From positions 310,001 through 374,000 of the forward strand of contig JAVJVX010000005.1 of NCBI GenBank assembly GCA_040220875.1: a DNA stretch of 64,000 nt. Direction: 5' to 3'. How positions within the stretch are numbered: the first letter of the stretch is position 1; each line of letters opens with the position of its first letter. A program made the translations under genes and the position numbers. Positions 54,961 to 58,147 of this stretch are shown here, in pieces. The notes under the pieces were generated by a model that did not search any database, was not told the origin of the DNA, and saw only the letters and a list, made by a program, of their open reading frames with translations. The DNA is from Alphaproteobacteria bacterium (GTDB lineage Bacteria > Pseudomonadota > Alphaproteobacteria > JAVJVX01).

Positions 54961-55323
54961 TTAGTCTGACGCCGCACGCGCCCACTTCTCTTGAAGCCAG
55001 CACCACTTCTCTTCAATCCCTTGGTCTTCAGTCTTTTGCCGACCTTTCACGACGTTTTCGCATAACTGAAGATTCGACCCAAACGCCATTCCGGTTTGTT
55101 TCTCATAACCACTTCTCCAAAGTGGCTCCGAAAAGACATTTACGAAATATTTTCCATCATAGTCCTTCTCATAGAACTTAAACTCTTTGTTATTTAGTTC
55201 TTGAAGTAATTCGTTCACTGATTCCGAAAAGATAATTCTAGGAAACTTTGCGACCTTTTGTTCGAGACAATGCGCCTCAATTAAACCAGGTCCAAAAACT
55301 ACGTTCCCTCTGTGCCATATTTC
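54961..55323 (-). pseudogene. C-terminal fragment of a nucleotidyl-cyclase-like gene interrupted by an IS1595-type element
   Basis: The 3' part (120 codons plus stop) of a gene split by the element at 55324-57845. Read from the target duplication it begins E-I-W-H-R-G and continues NVVFGPGLIEAHCLEQKVAK, FPRIIFSESVNELLQ. This stretch resembles the C-terminal half of small class III cyclase-homology-domain proteins (recognition by pattern, not search). A methionine just inside the element (55374) lets a 137-residue frame be read, but it would be only half a domain. Composition is visibly AT-richer than the backbone, indicating horizontal acquisition. Confidence 0.8.
55316..55323. repeat. Left 8-bp target duplication of the IS1595-type element
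   Basis: CATATTTC, identical to 57846-57853 on the other side of the element. Eight bases is the duplication length made by IS1595-family transposases. Confidence 0.9.
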
Positions 55324-55346
55324 GGGCATTATATACTTGACGTAGC
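55324..55346 (+). repeat. Left terminal inverted repeat
   Basis: Starts GGGCATTATATACTTGAC. Contains TATATA and TTGACG, which look like promoter hexamers pointing inward. Confidence 0.9.
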
Positions 55347-55385
55347 ATAGGCCATCAGGCACCATGTTTATCAAGGAGATAAGCC

Positions 55386-56300
55386 ATGGACCTGACCAAC
55401 CCCATCTTCCAAGACGAAAACGCCGCCCGCAAACACCTTGAGGGCATCCTGTGGCCCGACGGGCCGACCTGCCCCCATTGCGGCGAATACGAGAACATCA
55501 AGAAGCTGGCGGGCAAGTCCCACCGTCCGGGCCTCCATCAGTGCAATTCCTGCCGTGGCGCTTTCACAGTCACGGTCGGAACGGTGCTTGAGCGCTCCAA
55601 GATCCCCCTGCACAAGTGGGTGCTCGGCTTTCACCTCATAGCCTCATCCAAGAAGGGCATGAGCGCTCACCAACTGCACCGTATGCTCGGCGTGACCTAC
55701 AAGACTGCTTGGTTCATGGCGCACCGTATCCGCGAGGCCATGCGTGAGTTCAGCCCCGGCCCCATGGGTGGAGAGAACAAGGTTGTTGAGGCTGACGAAA
55801 CTTTTGTCGGCGGCAAGGCCAAGAACGCAAAGCGTGGCAAGCCTATTCCCAAGAAGGAAGCGGTGTTCTCTCTGTTAGAACGTGACGGCAAGGTGCGCTC
55901 TACTCACCTTCCTGCCGTAAACCACAAGAACCTTCGCCCTGCTATTTTCACACAGGTTGACCGCAAGAGTTACCTAATGACCGACGAGGCAATGCACTAC
56001 AAGGGCATCGGCAAGGAGTTTGCCGGACACGGTTCCGTCAACCATTCGATTGATGAATATGTCCGTGGTGTGTTCTGGCATACCAACACGATTGAGGGCT
56101 ATTTCTCCATCCTCAAGCGTGGCATCAACGGCACCTACCAGCACGTCAGCCAGCAGCACCTAAAGCGTTACCTTGGCGAGTTCGATTTCCGCTACAACGA
56201 GCGCAAGATCACCGACGCCGAACGCGCTGCAAAGGCCCTATACGGCATTCAGGGCAAGCGACTGACGTATCGGAGGACTGACGAAACCGCGAACGCCTAA
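55386..56300 (+). CDS. IS1595-family transposase (ISXO2-like)
   Basis: A 304-residue transposase, the usual length. N-terminal zinc ribbon with C29-P-H-C32 and C53-N-S-C56, then a helical DNA-binding region (GMSAHQLHRMLGVTYKTAWF) and the DDE/N catalytic core: D137 in VVEADETFVGG, D200 in YLMTDEAMHY and N234/E237 in HTNTIEGYFSILKRG. The ATG at 55386 has AAGGAGA 8 bases upstream. No frameshift or stop, so the element may still move. It is the only plus-strand gene in the element. Confidence 0.95.
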   Translation: MDLTNPIFQDENAARKHLEGILWPDGPTCPHCGEYENIKKLAGKSHRPGLHQCNSCRGAFTVTVGTVLERSKIPLHKWVLGFHLIASSKKGMSAHQLHRMLGVTYKTAWFMAHRIREAMREFSPGPMGGENKVVEADETFVGGKAKNAKRGKPIPKKEAVFSLLERDGKVRSTHLPAVNHKNLRPAIFTQVDRKSYLMTDEAMHYKGIGKEFAGHGSVNHSIDEYVRGVFWHTNTIEGYFSILKRGINGTYQHVSQQHLKRYLGEFDFRYNERKITDAERAAKALYGIQGKRLTYRRTDETANA

Positions 56301-56347
56301 GCAGCAAGCTAAGGCATTCATTCGCTGGCGTAATAAGCGATAGCAAG

Positions 56348-56377
56348 AGCCCCGGTCACTTGGCCGGGGTTTCTTTC
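56348..56377 (+). terminator. Terminator after the transposase, overlapping the end of the cargo operon
   Basis: CCCCGG (56350-56355) pairs with CCGGGG (56364-56369) over an 8-base loop, followed by TTTCTTTC. The stop codon of the 56-aa cargo gene lies in the loop, so both converging units end here; the T run favours the plus direction. Confidence 0.75.
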
Positions 56378-56526
56378 TTGGGCTTCCTGCCTTTCCGCCC
56401 GGCTTTCCCTACCACCTCAGCGTGGGGCTTGGGCGGCGTTTTTAGCAAGTTTCTCAAACCCTCGTCCCGCCTCTTGATAATCTCTGATTCGGGAAGTTCA
56501 GGCTTTGAGGCGCCCTTGTTGGTCAT
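56356..56526 (-). CDS. Small basic Lys/Pro-rich protein, cargo gene 3
   Basis: A 56-residue open frame beginning MTNKGASKPELPESEIIKRR and ending KKPKKETPAK-like (RKPKKETPAK). It contains RNLLKTPPKPHAEV, a small proline/lysine-rich motif. The ATG overlaps the stop of the DUF1828-like gene by ATGA, which supports real translation. No hydrophobic segment. It could be a nucleic-acid-binding or regulatory small protein; similar small proteins accompany IS1595-type elements and phages (recollection, not a search). Confidence 0.65.
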   Translation of the reverse strand: MTNKGASKPELPESEIIKRRDEGLRNLLKTPPKPHAEVVGKAGRKGRKPKKETPAK

Positions 56527-57320
56527 TGTAGGCTCGTTCGAAGGGTTGGAATTTCCTTCGCGATACGCGCGATAGCTTCGGATTCCGCACCATAAAATAC
56601 TGGCGTGGCATCTAAACGGTTTAGCGCACGCTGGCGCATTTTTCCCGTTACGAGGCGTGAGTTGTCACGGTCGAGAAGGGCCACTACAGAGCATAACTCT
56701 TTGGTTTCGTGGTCAGCAGCCATGCGTAGAAAAATAGCCTCGTATAGGCGCGCATCAGAGACGGCTATGAACACCGCTACAGGCATTTTCCCTGGAGCGG
56801 AAAGCAACACGTCCGGAATAAATTCTCCCAAGGAGGGGCTGACCGCTTGCTCTGTGAGGATTTGAACGCGATCCCCTAACTCTTGGGTAATGCGAATGAT
56901 TGCATCATCGCGGAAAGTGTTTCGCACAATCTCCGGATTCATGGCTGATAGTGCGCTCACGCGCATCATCATCGATACAAATCCGAGTGCTGCTTGCGGT
57001 AACTCCTGAGATTGCATCAAGGGGGATTTGAGTTCTCCGGTGTCCTCGTCATAGGTAACGCGCGATTGTCCAAGAATTGTGGCGAACACTCGCCCTCGCT
57101 GACCCTCTGTGACCTTCGTGCCCATTGCCAAGAGTTCTGGCACTAGTGAGCCATCATCTTCCAAGCGGTAAAGGCCGGTCTGCTCATCTCGCACAATGTA
57201 GAAGGCAATGCGGTCGCCTATTTTGTCCTCAAACGCAGTAGACACAGCAAACCCAGCGGGAACCTCAGATATCTGTATCCCGTCGCAGAAATATTCGCAG
57301 AGGTCATGTTCTAGGTTCAC
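56523..57320 (-). CDS. DUF1828-like protein, cargo gene 2
   Basis: A 265-residue protein starting at a GTG that overlaps the upstream gene's stop (GTGA). The N-terminal 90 residues (GDRIAFYIVRDEQTGLYRLE, then DDGSLVPELLAMG) match the DUF1828 pattern of a small beta-rich domain with a DDG turn. The C-terminal half (VAVFIAVSDARLYEAIFLRM, CSVVALLDRDNSRLVTGKMR) resembles the DUF1829 partner region. No signal peptide or membrane helix. The function of these domains is unknown; they occur in accessory regions and with toxin-antitoxin-like pairs. Confidence 0.75.
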   Translation of the reverse strand: MNLEHDLCEYFCDGIQISEVPAGFAVSTAFEDKIGDRIAFYIVRDEQTGLYRLEDDGSLVPELLAMGTKVTEGQRGRVFATILGQSRVTYDEDTGELKSPLMQSQELPQAALGFVSMMMRVSALSAMNPEIVRNTFRDDAIIRITQELGDRVQILTEQAVSPSLGEFIPDVLLSAPGKMPVAVFIAVSDARLYEAIFLRMAADHETKELCSVVALLDRDNSRLVTGKMRQRALNRLDATPVFYGAESEAIARIAKEIPTLRTSLQ

Positions 57321-57808
57321 AGCAAGTCCCCACGAGCCGCCGCATGCGCCCTGAAAAACTTCAGAGCCAGCTCCCACCACTCCTTCTTGCCGCGCAAAAC
57401 GTGCGGTCGCCGGTGCGCGCTTTTCCAGTAGGGGAAGGATAGCATATCCGCTGGTTCAATCTCGCCCACCGTTAAGCCCCCTCCGGGGCCGCACTCCGCA
57501 TGGCAATGCAAGCCCGCATGGGAGTGCGATTCCAACCGGGCCACCATCGCCCAACCTTCCGTGGTCTTAACGGCTAACCACGCCTTGTAGTTCGGCTTGT
57601 CCTGCCGCATTTGGACGAGAAGGCGGAACTCGTAGTCCTCCGAATCAAGCGCCACAGCCCGCCATATCCATTGCGGGTTAATACCCAATTGCCCCTTAAA
57701 AATAGGGAAATACCGCCGCCCGACTGGCCCTTGAGCCCAGTCCTTAGGCGCGTTCGCCGTCCACTTCGGCTGTCGTATCAGTTCCCGCGGGTTCACGGTC
57801 GCGAGCAT
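57317..57808 (-). CDS. Unknown 163-aa protein, cargo gene 1
   Basis: First gene of the cargo operon. It is rich in aromatic residues (WQ... pattern IWRAVALDSEDYEFRLLVQM, YKAWLAVKTTEGWAMVARLE) and has a His/Cys segment ESHSHAGLHCHAECGPGGG that could bind metal. The C-terminal helix KKEWWELALKFFRAHAAARG precedes the overlap with gene 2. The ATG is only 14 bases inside the right inverted repeat and has no strong ribosome binding site, so a leader near or within the repeat must drive it. I recognise no family. Confidence 0.7.
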   Translation of the reverse strand: MLATVNPRELIRQPKWTANAPKDWAQGPVGRRYFPIFKGQLGINPQWIWRAVALDSEDYEFRLLVQMRQDKPNYKAWLAVKTTEGWAMVARLESHSHAGLHCHAECGPGGGLTVGEIEPADMLSFPYWKSAHRRPHVLRGKKEWWELALKFFRAHAAARGDLL

Positions 57809-57822
57809 GTAACGGGCTATCC

Positions 57823-57845
57823 GCTACGTCAAGTATATAATTCCC
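57823..57845 (-). repeat. Right terminal inverted repeat
   Basis: Read on the minus strand it starts GGGAATTATATACTTGAC and matches the left end at 22 of 23 bases. Confidence 0.9.
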
Positions 57846-57853
57846 CATATTTC
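57846..57853. repeat. Right 8-bp target duplication
   Basis: CATATTTC, identical to 55316-55323. Confidence 0.9.
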
Positions 57854-58147
57854 TCCTACGTGAATAACGCCTCGAAGTGGCAGTTGTAATTTACTTAAAT
57901 AAGCCCACCAGAGTCCTTGAGTGGAAAACAGCCCATTGGCAAGGGATGCAACAGTCGAGTTCGTTGAAACGATAAAGGCATCAGATAGAACCGTCATCTG
58001 GAAGTCTGTTCTGGAACTCTGTGTATTATAGCTCCATTCTTCCAGTATGCCGCGAACACGCTCAAGTTCTTGGATAGTCGGATCTGACATAATTAATTTT
58101 CGGAATCCGAGTATATCCAAAAGGAAGATTAACTTTTTCTCGTACAT
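57846..58147 (-). pseudogene. N-terminal fragment of the interrupted nucleotidyl-cyclase-like gene
   Basis: Starts at ATG 58147 (MYEKKLIFLLDILGFRKLIM) and keeps 98 codons before the target duplication; reading on into the element adds only GIIYLT and a stop at 57824. LLDILGF resembles the first metal-binding Asp strand of class III cyclases, VLSDAFIVSTNS the second Asp hairpin, and LPLRGVIHVGE the following strand. Joined to 54961-55323 it gives 218 residues with no stop. It lies 54 bases after gcvPB on the same strand. AT-rich, so probably horizontally acquired before the element arrived. Confidence 0.8.

Follow-up and report, generated by a model that had tools for sequence, protein, structure and literature searches.

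Transposons that carry toxin-antitoxin or defence genes include Tn3-family and Tn7-like elements. Among insertion sequences, the IS1595 family has been described as containing "transporter IS" (tIS; Siguier, Gagnevin & Chandler 2009, as cited in PMC3129680, PMC7986276 and PMC11891212), and the passenger reported for its member ISNha5 is a transcription regulator (PMC11891212). In a literature search, whose reach did not extend to Siguier 2009 itself and ISfinder, we found nothing on IS1595 cargo with defence genes, and no experiments on the function of DUF1828 or of the PADLOC candidate pair PDC-M24 (M24A together with M24B, a DUF1828 protein). The element presented here, located in a window of 64,000 nucleotides (the whole stretch of DNA analysed), is a cargo-bearing IS of this already known kind. 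It shares with the IS1595 tIS the zinc-ribbon transposase, the short inverted ends, the 8-bp duplication and passengers unrelated to transposition. It differs from ISNha5 in that the passenger is a PDC-M24-like pair instead of a regulator and that toxin- or defence-like genes are found across its lineage. Like the Tn3-family and Tn7-like elements it is a mobile unit with modules that may protect the host or the element, but it has a single IS-type transposase and the unit is smaller than 3 kb in most copies. Taken together, we consider it likely that the locus represents a complete, probably still mobile IS1595 transporter with an autonomous M24-like gene pair, belonging to a lineage that exchanges its cargo, and that a 218-codon gene was disrupted by it.

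The element comprises 2,522 bp (55324-57845) and is present in exactly one full copy in the 2.54-Mb assembly of nine contigs; its features are listed in Table 1. A 16S search gave no match in this assembly, and its relatives point to Alphaproteobacteria as the probable class. We estimate (without the output of a tool) that 2.8 kb would contain a 22/23 inverted match with an identical 8-bp direct repeat abutting it exactly about 1e-10 times by chance, thus coincidence cannot account for this footprint. Both the terminal inverted repeats and the 8-bp target duplication of the IS1595 family are present. The original prediction had placed the 23-bp ends with one mismatch and the 8-bp flanks correctly to the base, and these coordinates bear out the proposed size. 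The assignment to IS1595 was likewise confirmed, since the transposase contains the ISXO2-like DDE domain (Pfam PF12762, 8.7e-33; NCBIfam NF033547, 3.6e-57) together with an N-terminal zinc-ribbon domain (Pfam PF12760, 5.1e-11), and genes other than the transposase do lie between the ends, as expected for a cargo-bearing element. The ends, the duplications and the restored reading frame fit the proposed simple transposition. Calling it recent, in a relative sense, is reasonable because no decay is seen in the transposase, in either end or duplication, or in either half of the gene. As an insertion event this is nothing unusual, and the evidence for it is now good. According to its sequence the element is probably still mobile: the transposase, if active, would act on the two 23-bp ends, and the 2.5-kb unit would enter the target DNA with duplication of 8 bp, which is seen here as the footprint.

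Table 1. Features of the IS1595 element and of the interrupted gene (positions in the window).
Feature	Position	Strand	Description	Basis
3' part of interrupted gene	54961..55323	-	120 codons + stop	joined frame, homologues across junction
Left target-site duplication	55316..55323	.	CATATTTC	sequence read
Left terminal inverted repeat	55324..55346	+	23 bp, GGGCATTATATACTTGACGTAGC	22/23 match to right end
IS1595 transposase	55386..56300	+	304 aa, intact, full-length	Pfam and NCBIfam
Micro-ORF C	56356..56526	-	56 aa, TPPKPH motif	start overlaps B stop
Cargo gene B	56523..57320	-	265 aa, DUF1828, PDC-M24B-like, GTG start	Pfam, PADLOC, alignments
Cargo gene A	57317..57808	-	163 aa, no family; conserved histidines H97, H101, H103	alignments
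Right terminal inverted repeat	57823..57845	-	23 bp, GGGAATTATATACTTGACGTAGC (read inverted)	22/23 identical to left end
Right target-site duplication	57846..57853	.	CATATTTC	sequence read
5' part of interrupted gene	57854..58147	-	98 codons	joined frame, homologues across junction

What goes beyond the original prediction is the identity of the cargo and the finding that carriage of cargo is general in the lineage. It is the cargo and the lineage-wide pattern that raise the interest of the locus, and borders set to the base give the cargo without guesswork from gene neighbourhoods. The cargo is an operon of three reading frames, A, B and C, which faces the transposase in convergent orientation and contains two 4-base overlaps, GTGA at 57317-57320 (A stop and B start) and ATGA at 56523-56526 (B stop and C start). 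Gene A has no family match in Pfam, NCBIfam or PADLOC profiles. Gene B matches Pfam PF08861 (DUF1828; 4.1e-11) and PADLOC PDC-M24B (4.1e-12 over residues 28-159), and the viral protein that matches it best likewise belongs to DUF1828 (2.4e-10). Four other delimited elements also have small ORFs with the TPPKPH motif of C, and the motif recurs next to an A-B pair in another genome (locus L131), against two occurrences counted in 207 kb of flanking sequence. Neither A nor B matched plasmids in tblastn searches or viral contigs, and a search of solved structures with both proteins matched none. The structure model of B is fairly confident (pLDDT 83.5, pTM 0.62); its fold matches in the PDB are weak, the best being the restriction enzyme Kpn2I (E=0.024), a hint that the C-terminal half of B might be nuclease-like. 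The fold predicted for A was too uncertain (pLDDT 54) and was dropped as evidence.

The closest described counterpart of the cargo is PDC-M24. In both cases two genes are adjacent, B matches M24B and a small partner with a histidine motif is located upstream; however, A of the window falls outside all M24A profiles, and the pair resides in an IS, with a micro-ORF downstream of it. PDC-M24A profiles gave no match to four A proteins, including that of the window, up to E=10, and the pair is therefore termed M24-like and not a member of PDC-M24. No similarity emerged when A and B were compared directly by profile with the more distant pairs. The distant B homologues in other classes are mostly encoded downstream of a small protein, and partners of such homologues match PDC-M24A (2e-56 in L136, 7.5e-4 in L135), which links A-B with this candidate system. 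The residues K15, H97, H101 and H103 are the only ones conserved in all ten A-type proteins compared. A-B can thus be regarded as a putative divergent relative of PDC-M24, for B by profile and for A by position and histidine motif.

As the likeliest function we propose that A and B would act jointly against phage or other foreign DNA and that the host would thereby benefit from the element; our confidence in this role is evenly balanced. It is less probable, and on the whole unlikely, that A-B is a toxin-antitoxin (addiction) module stabilising the element, in which one partner harms the cell and the other neutralises it. Two small genes in an operon with a 4-base overlap would suit such a module, and sibling elements contain PIN/VapC pairs and HEPN-like genes, which are typical of it, but PADLOC lists this type of pair as a phage-defence candidate, and none of the toxin or antitoxin families of Pfam and NCBIfam is matched by A or B. 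The two roles are not exclusive.

At four further loci (L021, G015, G051 and G528) the pair occurs with no transposase beside it, which identifies A-B as an independent module. In L021, from a Rhodospirillales genome, the proteins are 49% (A) and 53% (B) identical to those of the window and the element ends have no match; at the other three loci no transposase was seen adjoining the pair. That A and B are accessory transposition proteins is therefore very improbable, although such a role would be compatible with their location inside the element, facing the transposase: A-B stands alone elsewhere, for which reason transposition machinery was rejected, and there are elements with closely related transposases that do not contain A-B. 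Lying inside the ends and occurring also on its own, the pair corresponds to a tIS passenger, and from its sequence distribution it would be dispensable for transposition. In G015 (L023, 1498-1975) gene A appears to have a frameshift close to the C-terminal part, which may be a mutation or an assembly error.

Besides the window, two IS1595 contexts contain M24-like pairs. L131 (genome G425) has A-B in the same layout as the window; the IS1595 transposase next to the pair is truncated at its 5' end, and a remnant resembling an element end is located 84 bp upstream of A. Because of the truncation, the border at the transposase end could not be delimited. The second one, L104, is a delimited element with a transposase 60% identical to that of the window, and holds a distant A'-B' pair of which B' matches PDC-M24B at 1.1e-7.

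Transposases at least 43% identical to that of the window were present in 39 of 373 Alphaproteobacteria genomes. From 40 stretches, a sample of the best matches within this one class, we could delimit 30 elements, requiring ends with at least 17 of 22 matching positions and an 8-bp duplication with at most one mismatch (two if at least 19 positions of the ends matched). Five more were delimited on named alphaproteobacterial plasmids, giving a total of 35 further elements. With lengths of 1.83-4.31 kb and a transposase of about 0.93 kb each, all of them carry cargo, which is decayed in one (L098). No transposase-only copy was detected among the 35 elements by a search able to detect a bare element.

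The cargo found above the Pfam cut-off is varied: NYN, RelA_SpoT, DUF3800, HEPN_MAE_28990 with GmrSD_N (PADLOC NsnA and PD-T4-2_A), GmrSD_N with HNH, DUF433 with PIN_10, PIN, an N6_N4 methylase with Mrr, HEPN, an aspartyl protease and a Cas2-like protein. Elements on Roseomonas and Methylobacterium plasmids contain PIN and VapC genes annotated by NCBI. A toxin- or defence-like label is based here on family or motif, and several cargo genes have no family. In a small-database search, 13 cargo proteins formed a diverged set, most of them joined by pairwise similarity, and nearly all have an R[NH]xxxH-type motif, such as is found in HEPN RNases. This motif is present in 18 of 50 cargo ORFs versus 22 of 181 flank ORFs (Fisher p=2e-4, for a single motif picked after viewing the cargo).

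The distribution of cargo is not that of the transposase tree. By identity, the closest transposase (77%) is accompanied by an unrelated NYN gene and the next two by HEPN-like genes, while the transposase of L104, the other delimited element with an M24-like pair, is 60% identical. Thus, the lineage appears to swap toxin- or defence-like modules: as a pattern in the 35 further elements, close transposases are found with unrelated genes of this type, and transposase and ends would be retained while the cargo is exchanged. More tentatively, and with somewhat less confidence than in the joint action of A and B, we propose that this alphaproteobacterial IS1595 lineage might be a dedicated shuttle, in which each copy carries a small toxin- or defence-like module that is swapped under constant ends and transposase, so that reading between the ends would reveal new defence systems, A-B(-C) included. 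Should defence or toxin-antitoxin modules prove to be the regular cargo of the lineage, many compact, uncharacterised systems would come to light through mining of the ends. This would also help to account for the movement of such genes between chromosomes and plasmids, and would connect the dissemination of defence genes with an IS family.

Several further arrangements were observed. Two related IS1595 elements lie in opposite orientation with 9 bp between them in L111 (3272-5553 and 5563-7915), and one element in L103 (2962-5300) combines a Cas2-like protein (Pfam PF09827, 1.4e-5) with a HEPN-like gene. A delimited element on a plasmid of Mesorhizobium sp. AR07 (L150, 5869-8159) contains what by eye resembles an adenine DNA methyltransferase and a 460-aa ParB-like protein. 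On the Sulfitobacter guttiformis plasmid pSD118 (L148, 6037-6753) a 238-aa protein, by eye similar to the DUF1828-type protein of L104, adjoins an IS1595 transposase; the element borders could not be delimited there. Three IMG/VR contigs (L030 6171-6193, L032 4838-4860 and L033 8539-8561) share the same 18-bp core of the end in an identical short context; viral contigs with end-motif matches showed no second end and no delimited element.

The target of the insertion can be reconstructed. Excising 55324-57853 results in a single minus-strand frame with ATG at 58147 and stop at 54961, which reads ...VGEIWHRG... at the junction, in agreement with the original prediction of 98 and 120 codons joined at E-I-W. 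The 218-aa protein has homologues in other genomes of Alphaproteobacteria, and its tblastn matches on plasmids of Acinetobacter, Agrobacterium, Novosphingobium and Leisingera span residues 2-211 up to 2-218. The alternative that two unrelated genes flank the element and resemble a single target gene by coincidence can practically be dismissed: no empty-site relative was found among those compared and the homologues are distant (23-28% identity, full length), but two Agrobacterium plasmid proteins, each encoded by a single gene, align without a gap at the junction, the plasmid matches span it and frame and duplication fit exactly. The target was thus one gene that was broken by the landing of the element. 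An empty locus at the same site was not seen in the relatives compared, none of which belonged to the same genus or family. The GC content is 43-44% in the gene halves, 56% in the element and 66% in the window; since the target gene looks foreign, the insertion may have occurred in an earlier host.

The target gene is isolated and low in GC; by ORF reading, it is flanked on one side by the end of an ATP-synthase cluster and on the other by a glycine-dehydrogenase gene. Possibly the gene broken by this defence-like element had a defence function of its own. A Pfam scan of the protein gave no match; its conserved motifs DILGF, FSD and RGG recall those of class III nucleotidyl cyclases, which would suggest such an activity from the motifs. 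The sole matches among solved structures were antibody chains, which we regard as chance. One of three homologues inspected has no defence-type neighbours; of the other two, which are plasmid homologues, one is located among AbiEii, AAA-ATPase and UvrD-helicase genes and one adjoins Dsr1.
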